This document shows positions 24,276 to 53,270 of a stretch of DNA of 64,000 nucleotides, in pieces. A program made the position numbers and the translations under genes. The first letter of the stretch is position 1, and each line of letters opens with the position of its first letter. The DNA is taken from contig JAMDHS010000079.1 in the NCBI GenBank assembly GCA_029717555.1, positions 27,847 through 91,846 on the forward strand. Direction: 5' to 3'. Under the pieces are notes generated by a model that worked only from the letters and a program-made list of their open reading frames with translations, was not told the origin of the DNA and searched no databases. The stretch is from Peribolospora baueri. Taxonomy: Eukaryota; Basidiomycota; Peribolosporomycetes; Peribolosporales; Peribolosporaceae.

Positions 24276-27168
24276 TTACAACTTGGCTTTGGGAACGGCG
24301 TTCTTGCTCTCGTTTTGCTCCTTCTGTGCCACTTTGCGCAGGTCCTTGCGCAGGATCTTGCCGGCCGCGCTGAGCGAATGGAAGGAGGAGGACGGGGAAG
24401 CGAGGTCGGATTGGATCGGATCGGATCAAATGACATGACATTGACATGAGATGAGATGAGAAGAAATGAGGATGAGATCAGAACCGAACAAACGCGCCCA
24501 CAAAAGTCCTTCTCGACCGACGCGGCGACCGAACTCACGTCCTCGGCACCGCGTCCAAGAATCGAACGCCCCCACGAAGGCGCTTGTGCGCCGCCACCTT
24601 GGCCCGGACAAAGGCCACAATCTCCTCGACCGTCGACGCGTCGCGCGTCACGCCGGGCTTTACGACAACGTCTGGAGAAGGAGGTGAGGCGAAGCGGAAG
24701 GGTGGGAGGGAGGGCATTAGAGAACAGGAACCGAGGGCGGTCAGAACAACGTCGGACACCACGCCCCGACCCCGACGCGACTCACACGCGCGCGGAAGCT
24801 CGGTGGCCTGCTCCTCCGCGTAGACGCCGACGACGGCCGCATCGGCGACTCTGTGACGACGGAAAGCGAAAAGCAAGGACTCCAGGTGAGTCAACATCGG
24901 GTCGACACGAGAGAGATAGAAAGACAGACGCGACGCACTTGGGATGGGTCAGGAGAAGCGCTTCGAGCTCGGCGGGGGGCACTTGGAAGCCCTTGTACTG
25001 TGACGACGGGAAAGGCGAGGCGAGCGAGGCCTAAACGTCAGCGCGGACGATCCGAAAATGAGCACGCCCCGCGTCGTCTACCGATACGACCGCCGACCGA
25101 CCTTGATGAGCTCCTTCACCCGATCGACGATGAAGATGAAGTCGTCCTTGTCGATGTAGCCCACGTCTCCGGTGTGGAGCCAGCCTTGCTCGTCCAGCGC
25201 CTCCGCCGTCGCCGACAGGTTCTTCGTGTAGCCCCTGGCCGACGGCACGTGTCAAGAGTCAGTGTTGCCCCAGCCAGCACGACCCTGAGTCAGCACCGTA
25301 CCAACCAGTCATGGCGAGCAAAAAAGAACCGAAAAAAAAGGGCGACGCACTTCATGATGTTAGGACCTCGGACCCAAAGCTCGCCCCTTTCGCCTCGCGG
25401 TACGTCCTTGCCGTCAGGGTCGACAAACCTGATCTCCACGCCGGGCACCGGCCTACCGACGCTACCCGGGCGATTGTGCTTCCACGTGGCCACCGTACCG
25501 GCCACCGTCGTCTCCGTCATGCCCCATCCCTGCACGACCGGCATACCCAACCTCTTTGCCGTCTTCTCCGCCACCTCTGCGCCCAACGGCGCGGCGGCGC
25601 AGAGCAGCTGGTTCAGGCTCGAGTAGTCGTACTTGGGGACGATCGGATGAACGGCCAAACCGAGTGCCATGGGCGGCACCACGAAAGTGGACTGGATCTT
25701 GTGCTTCTCGATTGCCTCGCAGAACAGCGGGAGGTCGAAAGGCGCGAGGACGTAGGTGGTGCCGGCCGAGGCGATCGTACACATCAGGGCACAAACGTTG
25801 CCGAACGCGTGGCTGCAGGCGACGAAAGAAGACGAGAGATGAACACGAACCCCCCGCCTAAGCCAACTGGCCGCACCATCGCACGAAGCCAAAGTGGTCA
25901 ATGCAGAGGCGAAGACGACGGCGCTCACAAGAATGGCAGGACGACGAGCGTCCGGACGCCGGGGAAGGTAGTGCCGTTGGGAATGCAACGTAATTGCTCA
26001 ATCCTGCGCGCGTGAAGAGGTGAAGTGTGTCAGAATAATAAAAAAAAGGCCGCGTTACAGGCGGAAGGGCGAGGGAAAGAAAGGGAAGGAGCGACGACGG
26101 ACATGCTCGTGACGTTGTAGTGCGACAACTCCACGCCCTTGCCCTTGCCCGTTGTGCCGGACGAAAACGGGATGTAAGCCGTCTCGTGAGCGGCGTCGCC
26201 GTCGAAACGCTCGGGCTCAAGCTCCCGGGAGGAGCAGAGGTCCCAGATGGAGCGAAAGCCAGCCGGCGCGGACGCGTCTTGATCGATGATCACGTATGCG
26301 ACGGAAGTGCTTATGCCGGCCTCCTTGACGACCTTGATGAGATTGGGCGGGCAGATGATCGCTTTGGCGTCGCTGAAGATGATCGAGGGAGCACACAGGG
26401 TTACGCTCTCAGCTTCGGCCCAAGGGTCGAGAGTAGGTACACTAGGGAGGATGCTACCCCTGCCGGGCCGTCATCGTAAGCGCGCCTGGTGGGCTCACCT
26501 GATGTCCCAAGCGTGCTTCAACTCGTCGGCCTGATAAGCACTGTTGGCCAAGGCGGTGCGAAGGCCGGCAGCTTGGCACCCAAAGGAGGCGACGGGCCAA
26601 TAGATCGAGTTGGGGGCAAAGAGCATGCTGTCGGACGACGAAGCGGGTGTGACGACCGTAAGCAGCCTGCGAGCCTTGGCCGCCTCGCGCGACGTTCAAA
26701 GTCGGAGATACGTCAAGACGGCTCACATGGTATCACCGCGCTTCAGGCCCACGTCGTGTCGGAGACCGTAAGCAAGCCTCTTGGACGTATTCACGAGACC
26801 ACCGTAGCTGGGGACGTGGGAAGGAAGGAGGAGGAACGGCCGGACGCCGCGCGGTCGGTCCGCCTCGTTGAGCGTTCGGTCCCATCTGACGACCGGGGAA
26901 AGACTGAACGAGGAAAAGAGGGCGGCGACGCTCACCTAAAGTACTTTCCCGTCCTCACGTCCACGAGCGCCTTCCTGTCGTCTGGCGTGCCATGGGCGAA
27001 GAGGTGGGAGAACTGGACGAACGTGGCCGGTGGGCAGCCAGTGGAGCGTCAGATCAGATCAAGCGCCCCACTTTCTCCCCTGAACGACAACGAACGATGC
27101 CTATTCACCACGGAGTGCTTGGGCAGGCTCTTGAGCGGCTCGCCAGGATACGTATACGTCTGCGGCAT
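24276..27168 (-). CDS. 4-coumarate-CoA-ligase-like acyl-CoA synthetase, peroxisomal
   Basis: Twelve exons, all in phase: 27168-27109, 27012-26936, 26807-26727, 26666-26499, 26372-26103, 26003-25929, 25812-25351, 25234-25102, 24997-24939, 24850-24786, 24671-24539, 24369-24276; 558 residues, the normal length. It is an ANL-superfamily enzyme that adenylates a carboxylic acid and transfers it to CoA. The AMP-binding loop [13 protein letters not shown] lies near residue 193, LPFFHAFGN follows, QGWGMTET is motif A5, [12 protein letters not shown] and [20 protein letters not shown] mark the hinge, and [11 protein letters not shown] supplies the catalytic lysine. The protein ends in AKL, a type 1 peroxisomal targeting signal. 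Acid substrate unknown: such fungal enzymes use aromatic, medium-chain or other acids. It is divergent from the HypX-like gene across 1.2 kb. Confidence 0.93.
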
Positions 27169-28371: not shown

Positions 28372-31300
28372 ATGAAGATCATCTTCCTTTGCACGGCGTA
28401 CGACGCTCTGGCGCAGAGGTGAGCCCTTTTCCGTCTATCTCCTTTGATCAAGGAAAGACATGCTTAAGTGTGCCTCCGTGTTCGGCCTCCAGGCTTGCTC
28501 TCGTCCTGCGCTCGCACGGCCACGCGGTCACGGTCGAGTACGACATATCGGCCGAAACGATGACCGAGGCCGTAAACCTCTCCCAACCCGACCTCGTCAT
28601 CTGCCCCTTCCTCACCAACCTCGTTCCCAAAGACATTTACGAGCACTGGTTGACCCTCATCCTCCATCTCGGCGCCCCTGCCGACGCCGCCCCATCCGCT
28701 CCCGACTGGGTCCTCACGGGAGATGACGGAGCGATCGAGGACGCTGGCCATCCTTGCCGATGGGGCGTCTCCGTCACGCAGGCGGTTGGGGCCCTCGGCG
28801 TGGGGCCGGCCTGGGCCTTCGACCAACTCCCGGTCAAGGTGGACTGCTCGCCCGACGAGTCGCTCACGAGCAGCGTGCTCTATCGCGGACCGGTCACCCG
28901 CGCCGCCGTCGCCGCCGTGCTCAAGGCTCTTGAACGCATCACTGACGCAGTCCTGGCTGCGGGCACCAAAGATGCCGTTCGCCCTGACCTCGTTCCTCCC
29001 CCAGAGGTGCGAACCATCTCATGGACCGCCTCGCTGCCGCTCCAAGGGGGTCCATCCCATGACCGTCCTCTGCTCACGCATTCAGAACGCGACTTGGACT
29101 TTCGGACACACCCCGCTGAAATCATCGCTCGCCGCATCCGATCCGTCGACTCTCAACCCGGCCTCCTCACGCGCCTGTTCAGCGAAAAGGCGCCCCTGTT
29201 CGTTTACGGCGGCCTCGTGGAGCACAACAAGTTGCCGGCGGCGGCAGCGGAGAGAGCCGAGCGAGGCGGACCTGGGACCGTTGTGGCGCAGCGTCAGGGT
29301 GCGGTTCTCGTCAGCACCAAGGACGGCAATGGCGTGTGGATCACGCATGTCAGGAGACCCAAGGCCGACACGGACAAGTATCTCCACCCCAGATTGCCCG
29401 CCGTCATGGGTCTCCAAGCAGACCCAGAGCTGTTCGAGAGCCTTCAGATGGGCGACGTGCCGGAGTGGGATCTCGTCGAGCACACCGGCGGGTGGGGTCC
29501 CGTCCTCGGGACCTTCCAGCAGGTATGGATAGACGTGGAGGAGTACCCTTTAGCGCATCTCCCCACTGCTGCACCCGTCAAGATGGCCTACCTCCACTTC
29601 GATTCCTATGACGGCTCCATGTCTACCTCGCAAGCCCGGCTGCTCTCCGACGCACTCCGGCACGCGCTCACCATCCCTGGCTTGAGGGGGCTCGTTCTCA
29701 TGGGCGGAAGCTACTTCGGCAACGGCATCGCCCTCGACGTGCTTGAAGGCGCGCCCGACCCCGCCACCGAGAGTTGGGCCAACGTCAACGCTATCGATGA
29801 CGTCGTGCAGACCTTCCTCGACCCGCGGCTCACCGCCGACCGCGGCATCCTCACCTTGGCCGCCGTTCGTGGAAACGCATCTGCAGGAGGCCTCGCCCTC
29901 GCCGCTGCTGCGGACGTCGTCCTGTGCGCCGAGGCCGTCGTCCTCAATCCACATTATAGAAGCATCGGTCTTTTCGGCTCTGGTGAGTCTGGCGCCGTTG
30001 CGACCAGCAATAGCGAATGCGGGTCATCGAGTTCTCACTGGAAGCTGACGTTTTGCCTTGACGATCACGCCATTTTTGTCAGAATTTCATACTTTCACCT
30101 TCCCGGCTAGAGTGGGCGAGGAAAAAAGTGAGCAGATTTTGCGACAGATGCTCCCCATGAGCGCCAGCGAGGCGCAGGAGCTTGGTTTGATCGACCTCGT
30201 GGTCGGCGCGGGGAGCGAAGACGCTGAGGAAGTGGACGCGTTGGTCAAGGCCGCCGTTAGGGCGATCGTCACCGCTCCCGTCGCCAGCCAAGAGCCGGTG
30301 ACGACGCTGGGCGCGCCCTGGACCAAAGCGACGAACGCCGACGACGAGATTCCGATTGGCGCCTCTCTTAACACGGATCTGCTCCTGCACCACAAGCGCG
30401 AATACATGGGCCGTCTCTCCCAGGACCCGTCCGTCCATCCCCTTCTCCGCTTCCGCCAGGCCGAAATGCATCAGACGAGCCTCGACTTCTTCCATCCCTT
30501 CCGGTCGCAGCGCTATCACGCGCGTCGGCTCGCGTTCGTGAGGAAGGCGCGGCCAGCTGCCACACCCACGAGGTTCGCCTTGCACAGGCGCTACGATGGG
30601 CCCGGTTGGAACGACGCGGCGGCGCGAGGCGAGTGCCCGAAAACGCTGGACGAAGAGGAGCGGGACGCTTTCGATGGTTTAGGCGATGTGCCTATCGGAC
30701 CGACCGTCATCCACTGGCGGCACCGAGACGAAGGTCAGCCGGACGTGGTCGTGGGGGGACCAGATGCCGAGACGCCGACTTTGGCGGCGGACTTGGTCAG
30801 CGCGCCGGGCTTGTTGCCCACACCCGCGACGAAAAAGACCATGAACTGGCACCGAAGGAGTCCCAGCCGAGATCATGGTCTTCTGCCAAAGCCCGTGGCA
30901 GTGCCGGAAGAGCTCGCGCCGTCGACAGCGGCCATCGAGTTCAACAGAGCGCTTCAGGAGAGGGGCCTGCTCACCCCCGTCAGTCCCGCCATGAGCGACC
31001 TCAGCAGCGTGGGCTCGCCCCCACCCTCCACGCCCCAACGCTCTTTCGGGGCCGTACAGGGCGGCCAAGCGAGACCCACGACGCCGAGCGGTCAAAGTCA
31101 GAGCAGCCCTGACCCAACGAAAGCGACGTGGACGGAGGGTGGGTTCCTGACCTCCTTCGGCCGCGCAATCGCATCGGGTTGGGCCGTCGCAAGCGGAGAC
31201 AAGCGCTCCGCTGACGCTGACAGCAGTCCGCTGGCGAGCCCTGCAACACCCTGGACGGGCGCAATAACGTCCTCGTTCGCGGAGCAGCAGGTTCCACAAC

Positions 31301-31788
31301 CTCCTGCGCGCCTCTCAGCTCCTCCGCTTCTTCCGGCGAAGAAACCGTCCGGTCAGACGTACGAGCAGCAAGAGCAGCCACGGCGGCAAGAACAACAACA
31401 GCAGCAACAGAGGCAACAAGCCACCCCGACAACGACCGCGCGGGAGAAAGCGACGGAAGACGAAAGCCCGCCGCCTACCGGCAGTCTCAGAGGGCTGGGC
31501 AAAATGCTAGGCGGGTGGCGAACGAAAGCTCTCGATCAAATGGAGTCTTTGGCCTCTGCAGCCTCTGCAGCGGCGGCCGCAACCACACTGCCTCGCATGC
31601 TCCAACAAGCCGGCGGTCGCGCTGCTCCTCGCCCTGAGGATGGGGCCAAAGCTTCCGTAGTCCAGGATGCGTCGCCGTCGTCGTCGTCGTCGTCGCCGGA
31701 CGAGCAGGTGGAGAAGGGTACTACCTCGACCAAGGCGCACGGCAAGGCGCGCCAGCCTCTCTTCTCCTGGTCCGTCCGCGACGAGTGA
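28372..31788 (+). CDS. hypX: HypX-like protein: formyltransferase-like plus crotonase domain
   Basis: Three exons, 28372-28418, 28493-29982 and 30083-31788, 1080 residues. Residues 1 to about 665 align in order with bacterial HypX/HoxX. First comes an N-terminal formyltransferase-like half (MKIIFLCTAYDALAQRLALV, PDLVICPFLTNLVP, SAPDWVL, RWGVSVTQAV, RRIRSVDSQPG, FVYGG). Then a crotonase (enoyl-CoA hydratase-like) half (MAYLHFDSYDGSMSTSQ, MGGSYFGNGIALDVLEGAPD, ESWANVNAIDDVV, VRGNASAGGLALAAAADVV, VVLNPHYRSIGLFGS) and the closing RFRQAEMHQTSLDFF block. Bacterial HypX uses formyl-tetrahydrofolate and CoA to make formyl-CoA, then releases CO for NiFe-hydrogenase assembly. Fungi have no such hydrogenase, so the role here is unknown. 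The HPG motif of the N-terminal half is HLG. The last ~415 residues are a disordered fungal extension with a Gln-rich stretch. No targeting signal is evident. Confidence 0.88.
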
Positions 31789-50430: not shown

Positions 50431-50735
50431 CCCCGCAGCCTAGCAGTCCCGCAGTCTCCTCTTTCCCACGGTGTACGTCCAATTACAGTCCTTTTAGGCC
50501 GTTACCAACCAGTGACATGGAGTACAGACAGAATCAATCCATCATTATCGGTCAATTGTCTATTGCCGCCGATCACTCGCGACATCCCCACGTGAAATCA
50601 TAGTTAGGTCCGGAGAGGGAGCAGCCGGACTTGCTCCAGAGCTGTAGCATAGCCAGCCCCTTCGTCTAGAGCCGTCTCACTTTTCTAGTCTTGCGCTCCT
50701 CCATCTCCATCCCAGGAAAGAAGGGACGATTCATC
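50431..50735. other. Promoter region of enoyl-CoA hydratase
   Basis: About 305 bp of normal composition between the NUMT and the hydratase start. Nothing else identified. Confidence 0.45.
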
Positions 50736-51979
50736 ATGCTGTCCAGTGCTCGCGTCTCTCTCGCCAGGGCTCTCTACGCCCGCGCTCCACTCTCCCATGT
50801 GCGCGCCTTGTCCACGACGCTCCCCCGATTCCAGGCTGCGGAGTACAAGAACATCCTTGTCTCCAACCCCAAGCCAGGCGTCGCCCTCGTTACCCTCAAC
50901 AGGACCAAGGCGCTCAACGCACTCAACTCGGAGCTCATTTCCGAGATCAATGACGCGTTGGTAAAGTCCGACGGGGACGACAGCATACGGGCCATCGTTT
51001 TGACGGGCGGCGAAAAAGCTTTCGCAGGTACGCTGTCCTTCCTCGACTTTCTGTATGGCGGCGGGGCGACTTGAGCTCCCTCGCTGAGGAATATCCGTCT
51101 TCTTTTCTAATTTGCTTCAGCTGGAGCTGACATCAAGGAGATGAGGGACCTAAACTTCTCCGGAGCCTACAAGCGGGACTTCCTCGGAAACTGGACGGAC
51201 ATCTCCGCTATTCGCAAGCCAATCATCGCCGCCGTGAGCGGATACGCGGTGAGCGCTTTTGAGGTTTCTGTTGCTTCTCGGTCGCCTCTGAGGGCGAACG
51301 CGCGTGCAGACGCTGATCAGTCCAGCTCCTTCATTACCATGTTCGTCGTCGTCAGCTCGGCGGAGGTTGTGAATTGGCGATGATGTACGTCTCTCGTTTG
51401 CGTCTCGCCGGCGGGTTGAATGAGCGTACTGATGTTTTCTTTTCCCTCAAATTGCAGGTGCGACATCATTTATGCGTCTCCCACCGCCACCTTTGGCCAG
51501 CCAGAGATCAACCTCGGCGTGATCCCCGGCGCGGGAGGCACGCAGCGTCTGACGAAAGCGATTGGCAAGTCCAGAGCGATGGAGATCGTCTTGACGGGCC
51601 GTAACTTTGGCGCGAAGGAAGCGGAAGCATGGGGGTTGGTGAGCAAAGTCGTTGAGGAAGGGGAAGGAAAGGTCGTGGAAGAGGCGATCAAGACGGCCGA
51701 GACGATCGCCAAGAAGGGCCAGGTCGCTATCCAGGCGGCCAAAGAGGCCGTGAATGCTTGTGAGTCGTCGCGTCGTACCCTAGCATTCGCTTGCGATCGC
51801 GAGAAAACGAGTGTGATTCAGTGCTGTTCCTTAAACCTTCCTCAGCTTATGACCTGTCCCTGCACGAGGGTCTTCGCCTCGAGCGCCGCCTCTTCCTTTC
51901 GCTCTTCTCGACCAAAGACCAGAAGGAGGGCATGGGCGCTTTCGCCGAGAAGAGAAAGGCCAGCTTCACCCACGAGTGA
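50736..51979 (+). CDS. Mitochondrial enoyl-CoA hydratase (ECHS1-type)
   Basis: Five exons, 50736-51027, 51121-51248, 51356-51384, 51458-51759 and 51846-51979, 294 residues. The N-terminus is a basic, Ser/Ala-rich mitochondrial presequence ([18 protein letters not shown]). The crotonase core follows: [37 protein letters not shown] (oxyanion hole), [20 protein letters not shown] with one catalytic glutamate, and [20 protein letters not shown] with the other. The C-terminus holds [20 protein letters not shown] and [14 protein letters not shown]. It hydrates trans-2-enoyl-CoA in fatty-acid and branched-chain amino-acid breakdown. Exon 3 is short (29 nt) and encodes only LGGGCELAM. Confidence 0.94.
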
Positions 51980-52116
51980 TCGGTTGACGGCGGTTGGCGC
52001 TTCGACATCTCTGCGAGCGGACGAGAGCGGTCGCTTAAATAGTCGCGAATGAAATGCAACGATACGAAAAGAGGGGGTTTGATTCCAGATAGGAATGAGA
52101 GACAAAGGAATAGGCT

Positions 52117-53270
52117 CTACACAGAGAAGTGCTTTTCCATTCCCCCCTTTGACTTGTCGCGGTTTTCCTCGAGTCGCTTCTCAAGCTTGGAGAATTCGTC
52201 GAGAGCTACCAACTCCTCCTGATCCAGGACCTGCTCCACGCCCTTCACTTCAGGAATGTAGTGCGTGAGCATCCTCTCGATGCCCGTCTTGAGCGTCACC
52301 ACCGAGCTATCGCACCCGCGGCAACTGCCCTTGAGCATGAGGCGTACGATTCCATCGCCGTGCTCCTCGAAGCCCCTGTACTCGATATCCCCGCCGTCCT
52401 CCTGGATGGCTGGCCGCACTCGCGTGTCAAGGAGCTCCTTGATCATAGCCACCACCTCCGAGTCGGTGTCGAGGATCTGGGTGTCTGTCGCAGCCTGTGC
52501 ATGCGACGGGTCGGCAAACAACGGTGTTCCGGCCGTGAAAAACTCCATGAGGGTGCTGTAGATCTCTGGTTTGATCGATGGCCAGGGCACCTCCGTGTCT
52601 TTGGAGACCGTCACAAAGTCAGGACCGTAGAAGACACCACGGACACCTTGGATACCGAACAACCGCTTTGCCAGCGGTGACGACCTGATCATTTGTTAAT
52701 CAAGAGAAGCCCGGAATGGGTCATCGGCTTCTATTAGCTTGCTAGGAAAAACATGAAGAAGGCTGGGAGGGAAATGTAACAACTCACATTGACGATCGGT
52801 TGTCCAGAAACTCGGCCGTGCCGCTCTCCATGACTTGCTGTCCTGGAAGGAACTTGAGCGAGTCCTCGTTCGGCGTCGTCTCGGTTTGTATGAACATGGT
52901 TCGGACTGCAAGATGACGCGAGACGGCAAAAAATGAGGTGGCGAGGTCAGCGCGCAGACTCCTTTCGTTTCAAGGGCATCACAAGCGATCGGGGATGGAT
53001 TCAACTGCTGAACGGGCCATAACCCCTTCCTACGGAATACTCACCCTGAGAAGCGCCTAGCCGTGCTTTTTCAGTCCACCTCAAGCCCATCCTCGCGCTC
53101 GAGCCAGCGGACCCGACCCGGAAGGTGGAGGTTGAAGGTGTGGCAAAGGCAAAAGTGCTAAGTTGCCGTCCGCAACCGGCCACTCTCGTGGCGGCGGCAA
53201 AGGCAGTGGCGCGTGAAGCGCCGATGCGAGAGATGTTCCCTAGGAGACAGGCTGCCCTTGTGGTCGCCAT
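52117..53270 (-). CDS. NFU1: NFU1, mitochondrial iron-sulfur cluster carrier
   Basis: Three exons, 53270-53045, 52905-52788 and 52684-52117, 303 residues. A mitochondrial presequence ([20 protein letters not shown]) precedes the Nfu N-terminal domain ([59 protein letters not shown]). The NifU C-terminal domain follows ([40 protein letters not shown]) with the CxxC that binds a 4Fe-4S cluster. NFU1 delivers clusters to lipoyl synthase and other targets. A charged ~30-residue tail follows. The chosen ATG is followed directly by the presequence. It is convergent with the hydratase gene (137 bp apart). Confidence 0.95.

Follow-up and report, generated by a model that had tools for sequence, protein, structure and literature searches.

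A eukaryotic HypX homologue that retains the proposed CO-releasing residue pair and has lost the proposed base of formyl transfer

The window analysed here, a single 64-kb stretch of genomic DNA, carries a HypX-like gene at 28372..31788 on the plus strand. The gene is divided into three exons, begins with an ATG at 28372 and remains in frame up to its stop codon, giving a product of 1080 aa. The three motifs quoted in the initial annotation (GGSYFGNGI, ESWANVNAIDD and a third one) are all contained in this translation. The features of the locus are the following.

24276..27168, minus strand: divergent neighbouring gene encoding an AMP-binding acyl-CoA ligase with C-terminus ...PKAKL (given as a single span)
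28372..28418, plus strand: exon 1, from M1 to codon 16, which is split (gene model)
28372..28934, plus strand: Rossmann subdomain A, residues about 1-163, with intron 1 inside (alignment; boundaries by analogy with Aquifex HypX)
28419..28492, plus strand: intron 1, GT-AG, 74 nt (gene model)
28493..29982, plus strand: exon 2, with all of the formyltransferase-like half and most of the crotonase half (residues 17-512 modelled)
28665..28691, plus strand: degenerate formyl-transfer loop, His74 and Asp80 retained, bacterial Arg81-Gly82 replaced by Ala81-Ala82
28797..28799, plus strand: codon of Gly118, at the position of the catalytic Asp109 (alignments)
29058..29381, plus strand: OB-like subdomain, Formyl_trans_C, residues 210-306 matched (Pfam)
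29568..30225, plus strand: crotonase half, residues about 375-560, with intron 2 inside (Pfam and phmmer)
29955..29957, plus strand: codon of Tyr504, equivalent to decarbonylase Tyr416 (alignments)
29983..30082, plus strand: intron 2, GT-AG, 100 nt, splitting the codon of Glu513 (decarbonylase Glu426)
30083..31788, plus strand: exon 3, with the end of the crotonase half, the HypX-type C-terminal stretch and the stop codon
30598..31785, plus strand: low-complexity tail of about 396 aa, absent from Aquifex HypX

The tail, which the initial annotation leaves unmentioned, is rich in Ala, Pro, Ser, Gly, Thr and Gln (13% Ala, 12% Pro, 11% Ser, 7% Gln) and is disordered-looking. Genes with recognizable domains in the window encode RCC1/ankyrin, PSP1, AMP-binding, arrestin, IRE1-type kinase and RNase, poly(A)-polymerase-like, enoyl-CoA hydratase and Nfu proteins, a set that, judged by these domains, fits a eukaryotic genome and is compatible with a fungus. 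The initial claim that this is a true nuclear gene is borne out by the two GT-AG introns, of 74 nt and 100 nt, and by neighbours of eukaryotic type, among them genes for an IRE1-type kinase-RNase, an arrestin, Nfu1 and a mitochondrial-type enoyl-CoA hydratase. A second, ordinary crotonase gene with a mitochondrial-looking N-terminus is present at 50730..52049 on the plus strand (ECH_1, 1e-30) and is adjoined by an Nfu1-like gene at 52120..52695 on the minus strand.

The start codon of the acyl-CoA ligase is located 1.2 kb from the HypX-like gene, and we take its AKL end to be peroxisomal-signal-like. Its identification as an oxalyl-CoA synthetase was unsupported. Its matches at E ≤ 1e-10 are a fatty-acyl-CoA synthetase, luciferases, 4-coumarate-CoA ligases and similar enzymes, so we claim no functional link to the HypX-like gene, and the proximity of the two may be due to chance. 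Within the 64-kb window we found no gene for a formyl-CoA source, and neither a tRNA (ARAGORN) nor a structured RNA (Rfam at gathering thresholds). A viral or phage origin was also discarded, as the viral contig scan gave eight pattern matches with no relative among them.

The first ~685 residues of the product align with HypX, in order. When PDB sequences were searched with phmmer, five distinct Aquifex HypX sequences were recovered at 2.8e-74 to 1e-70, the next best matches being ordinary crotonases at 2e-7. As proposed initially, both halves of HypX are present in order, since they match the Aquifex protein 6j0p separately with 95 and 143 bits. Pfam recognized Formyl_trans_C (2.2e-8, residues 210-306) and ECH_1 (1.6e-13, residues 401-555), with no match to Formyl_trans_N at E ≤ 0.1, and NCBIfam gave weak enoyl-CoA hydratase matches, none of them near its cut-off (best 25 of 48). 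Identity is 40% to the Aquifex HypX pieces across aligned columns and 28-37% to 80 bacterial HypX loci in the best segment; the highest bacterial identity in the tree alignments is about 40% over aligned columns. The initial annotation had also envisaged that the best matches might be ordinary crotonases with no formyltransferase-like half; crotonases score only 2e-7 and that half is there.

Structure prediction, suggested at the outset as a check, agreed with the sequence searches, the model of exon 2 matching HypX structures best. This AlphaFold2 model covers exon 2 only (residues 17-512) and was built from an alignment of 51 bacterial HypX rows (mean pLDDT 79.3, pTM 0.81). In Foldseek the top matches were eight HypX chains, the best of them with an E of 1.2e-31, a TM of 0.73 (by query length), 3.2 Å and 28% identity; formyltransferases followed from 2.4e-9 (1fmt) and crotonases from 8.5e-7. 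The predictor input, being HypX, biases the model towards HypX; the sequence result is independent of the model. A generic crotonase or enoyl-CoA hydratase is ruled out by the scores (2e-7 versus 3e-74 for HypX), and the model also matches HypX best. The HypX architecture, a formyltransferase-like half followed by a crotonase half and alignable across HypX, is present in the product, and by sequence the window gene is a genuine, unusual HypX homologue. Our search of the open-access literature found no fungal HypX; subscription papers lay outside that search, and absence from print is therefore not claimed. Two candidate reports were discarded: in the passage concerned of PMC5491491 HoxX stands in the list of references, and the gene called "hypX" in that of PMC4374905 is part of a tyrosine gene cluster. 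Sequence databases that cover fungi may already list fungal homologues.

The active sites of HypX have been described in Aquifex, where His74, Asp80 and Asp109 are the proposed formyl-transfer triad, with Asp109 as the proposed base, and where the residues proposed for decarbonylation are Tyr416 and Glu426; Ralstonia mutants in the equivalents of Tyr416 and Glu426 were HypX-minus in vivo (all from passages of PMC6802093). According to a passage of a review (PMC12134894), biochemical work has since demonstrated that HypX both transfers formyl to CoA and releases CO. In our alignment, the window protein has His74, Asp80, Gly118, Tyr504 and Glu513 at these five positions. The comparison of active sites thus gave a divided answer: the decarbonylase pair is kept as Tyr504 and Glu513, whereas the transfer triad is broken, with His74 and Asp80 present and Asp109 replaced by Gly118. 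Beside the catalytic loop, Arg81-Gly82 has become Ala-Ala. The gene is accordingly a non-canonical HypX as far as its sequence tells, because the transfer triad is a defining feature of HypX and is incomplete here.

These departures were compared with several bacterial sets, which overlap (the 31-sequence set partly with the set of 81; four genomes of the six-region set are already among the 31). Among 80 bacterial loci and Aquifex, His74, Asp80, Arg81, Gly82, Asp109 and Glu426 are each found in 81/81 sequences and Tyr416 in 77/81. The four exceptions are Bacteroidota with Thr (L027, L040, L064 and L073), in which Glu426 and Asp109 are intact, a departure that is the reverse of the one in the window protein. 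Asp109, Arg81, Gly82, Tyr and Glu are all present in every one of 31 sequences from 29 genomes and in all six of a set of HypX regions; nine more sequences have Asp109, Arg81 and Gly82 (9/9), together with Tyr and Glu. Among the sequences compared, all others being bacterial, loss of the aligned Asp109 is peculiar to the window protein.

The loss of the transfer site is local. Near-invariant columns, defined as identical in at least 77/80 bacterial rows, are kept by the window protein at 19/29 positions in the Rossmann part, 7/8 in the OB part and 32/42 in the crotonase part; because retention differs little between the halves, the N-terminal half is, on this measure, not decaying as a whole. 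Other changes carry unequal weight. Asn306, present in 81/81 sequences of the first set, is Asp389 in the window protein, a change that is less telling because Gly occurs there in 10/31 sequences of the second set. Lys59 and Tyr108 of the tetrahydrofolate site are also altered and were left uncounted because bacteria vary there too. Of the CoA-tethering residues compared, Q15, R131, S194 and Q195 are present, N306 is Asp389 and R9 is Ala9, several of these positions being variable among bacteria. The NPHY..IG.GSE surroundings of the Tyr/Glu pair are those of HypX. The crotonase pocket carries the changes Phe387Ser, Trp515His and Tyr517Phe, which as sequence changes count against an unaltered HypX chemistry.

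The initial annotation states that formyl-tetrahydrofolate is what bacterial HypX turns into CO; this is unlikely here, where Asp109 and the Arg-Gly beside the loop are lost. The complete reaction could be rescued if His74/Asp80, water or another residue took the place of Asp109, and the retention of these two residues and of the fold speaks for such a rescue. However, Asp109 and Arg81-Gly82 are invariant in every bacterial set, hydrogenase-free genomes included, and Formyl_trans_N is unmatched by Pfam; we regard full HypX chemistry as quite improbable. Bacterial contamination, a wrong gene model or a sequencing error might also produce such a sequence, as a single assembly was available and one substitution would be enough to remove Asp. 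Two GT-AG introns within the homologous part, eukaryotic neighbours on both sides, the lack of any bacterial relative above about 40% identity and independent changes at several places of the transfer loop all argue against an artefact, which we consider very improbable indeed. Gly at the Asp109 position could be a peculiarity of this strain, as it is seen in a single sequence.

To our knowledge, fungi have no NiFe-hydrogenase. The inference made initially, that a use other than hydrogenase maturation is implied, is well founded, as the HypX homologue sits in a spliced gene in a eukaryote-like setting. Its companion premise, that HypX belongs to owners of hydrogenase, turned out to be weak already in bacteria, 5/31 and 3/13 HypX-bearing genomes lacking both HypD and the NiFe large subunit. 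The 13 genomes were picked from HypX loci, mostly from loci without hydrogenase markers nearby, and the three are Nonomuraea candida, N. endophytica and Methylocapsa palsarum. The 31 came from even draws, in which HypX was found in 9/396 Actinomycetota and 22/398 Pseudomonadota genomes; nine of them lack HypD, and five of these nine also lack the large subunit. Another HypD-less genome, the actinobacterial G063, has a large subunit match that is only partial (35.5 bits). Two of the five have contigs of 5.8-6.0 Mb, so that incomplete assembly is no explanation there; for the others it might be. In the bacterial order of G063, HypX is present in 11/121 genomes, 9/11 of which are without HypD, a figure that concerns HypD only, the large subunit having been searched in two of the 11. 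Hydrogenase-free HypX is therefore real in bacteria, and its transfer triad is intact. The full active-site set also occurs in HypX genes of genomes without HypD, some of these genomes also being without the NiFe large subunit, at L117..L122 and L123..L131 and in genomes G002, G006 and G007. The many bacterial HypX genes in HypD-less genomes indicate a HypX biology wider than hydrogenase maturation.

Gene neighbourhoods were also inspected at the bacterial loci. In two actinobacterial genomes without HypD (G063 and G248), hypX is followed by a gene for a membrane protein with an MHYT domain (Pfam, 1.8e-37 and 3.2e-37).

L120:8731-9657 and L121:8860-9711, plus strand: MHYT genes directly after hypX

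According to passages of PMC11347149, the MHYT domain of CoxC senses CO via copper and MHYT proteins occur in several fungi. By analogy, this arrangement suggests, as a hint, that CO made by HypX could be sensed by the adjacent MHYT protein. MHYT proteins are found somewhere in all 11 HypX genomes of G063's order and adjoin hypX in two; none was seen at the other retrieved HypX loci, many of which are short. At L117:6893-14769 and L118:200-9197, hypX lies between zinc-type alcohol dehydrogenase and thymidylate-kinase-like genes and adjoins a phenazine-like gene run (recognized by eye, with isochorismatase alone tested by Pfam). At the Nonomuraea loci, the next gene after hypX belongs to the EPSP-synthase family and carries a helix-turn-helix domain (L015:11550-13247 by Pfam; L032, L055 and L080 by sequence likeness). 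Across hydrogenase-free HypX groups, shared neighbours are conserved within close relatives only, among the matches listed.

We then consider the ancestry of the window protein, which forms a long branch in each of three trees (2.72, 2.33 and 1.96 changes per column). The first quick tree left it as a lone long branch at the midpoint root, and the second joined it to Hydrogenimonas L019 with a support of 45 and a long-branch warning. In the careful tree, for which 55 rows were kept and L019 and many near-duplicates left out, it attaches between 38 rows and a 16-row clade, of which 11/16 come from HypD-less genomes; the fork to the 38 rows has a support of 82/55. By scores the protein is not among generic crotonases, and in none of the three trees does it fall inside a supported bacterial HypX clade. 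No bacterial donor was found among the rows of these trees. On the suggested horizontal transfer the trees speak neither way: no recent transfer is visible among the bacterial rows, the long branch lying outside bacterial clades, and the protein may stem from an old transfer or from an old eukaryotic lineage. A short loop before the catalytic Glu is common to the window protein and 15/80 bacterial rows, and a His after GSE is shared with 8/9 later actinobacterial rows. The short loop and the Trp-to-His change may point to kinship with the hydrogenase-free clade, which is a hint only because the tree placement there is unsupported.

The long branch (2.0-2.7 changes per column), the pocket changes and the 396-aa disordered-looking tail would also be expected of a neofunctionalised acyl-CoA enzyme or a non-catalytic CoA-binding protein, with the ancestral activities gone or changed and the tail serving as a regulatory or scaffold element. 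Retention of both decarbonylase residues and of their loop argues against such a protein, which seems to us rather unlikely.

What is kept and what is lost points instead to a eukaryotic HypX homologue specialized for the second of the two HypX steps, a reading that we favour tentatively, with somewhat less than even confidence, its split conservation resting on one sequence. Given the replacement of Asp109 by Gly118 and of Arg-Gly by Ala-Ala, the step from formyl-tetrahydrofolate to formyl-CoA is probably dead, and the substrate would most likely be formyl-CoA made elsewhere, CO (or formate) being the product. The N-terminal half would have lost formyl transfer to CoA and would remain as a CoA-holding or structural part; formyl-CoA supplied by other enzymes of the cell would enter the crotonase half, where Tyr504 and Glu513 would split it into CO and CoA, the CO being a disposal product or a signal. 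The most economical way to explain all the retained and lost residues may be that formyl-CoA enters from outside and is split by this pair.

Eukaryotic sources of formyl-CoA include oxalyl-CoA decarboxylase and 2-hydroxyacyl-CoA lyase. The crotonase superfamily includes thioester hydrolases, and the crotonase half could instead yield formate and CoA, which would make it the formyl-CoA hydrolase that is missing from oxalate metabolism or alpha-oxidation in eukaryotes. For the oxalyl-CoA route of plants, a formyl-CoA hydrolase has been proposed that "has yet to be identified" (passage of PMC9090294), and for an actinobacterium a passage of PMC7176365 states that no specific enzyme of formyl-CoA hydrolysis was found; with this step unassigned in print, a formyl-CoA consumer is wanted. 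A hydrolase would accommodate the lost transfer site, as well as the pocket, which is altered next to the catalytic Glu (His515 for Trp, Phe517 for Tyr). However, the Tyr/Glu pair and NPHY..IG.GSE are those of HypX, whose reported chemistry is CO release (passage of PMC12134894), and we hold a hydrolase to be unlikely. By analogy, the retained HypX-type pair favours CO rather than formate as the product of the proposed second-half enzyme. A more ambitious form of this proposal, a dedicated eukaryotic formyl-CoA decarbonylase derived from an ancient HypX relative and converting formyl-CoA from oxalate or alpha-oxidation into CO, independently of haem oxygenase and possibly as a signal, appears doubtful.

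If our reading is true, eukaryotes have an enzymatic route to CO besides haem oxygenase, and the protein is a candidate for the unassigned formyl-CoA consumer in the oxalyl-CoA and alpha-oxidation routes. Even on anatomy alone, the two HypX reactions would be separated in nature, the CO-releasing site being kept and the formyl-loading site lost, and this separation opens the way to a direct test of the division of labour that the HypX crystal structure suggested.

Among known systems, bacterial HypX/HoxX (Aquifex aeolicus 6J0P series; Ralstonia/Cupriavidus) has the same two-part order and is alignable with the window protein as far as the HypX C-terminal stretch. His74, Asp80, Tyr416, Glu426, Gln15, Arg131, Ser194 and Gln195 are common to both, whereas Asp109, Arg81, Gly82 and Asn306 are changed in the window protein, whose gene has introns and encodes a 396-aa tail and whose identity is at most about 40%. 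HypX of bacteria without HypD (actinobacterial and Pseudomonadota) resembles it further by a presumably shared hydrogenase-free setting, by the short loop before the catalytic Glu (15/80 rows and 6/6) and by His for Trp after GSE (8/9 later actinobacterial rows), but keeps the whole transfer triad, and the window protein is not placed among these sequences with support. The formyltransferases FMT, FDH hydrolase domain and ArnA share its N-terminal fold (Foldseek, 1fmt, 2.4e-9), whereas the window protein lacks the catalytic Asp and is fused to a crotonase. Finally, the enoyl-CoA hydratase/isomerase (crotonase) family resembles its C-terminal half (ECH_1, 1.6e-13), but matches it far more weakly than HypX does (2e-7 versus 3e-74).
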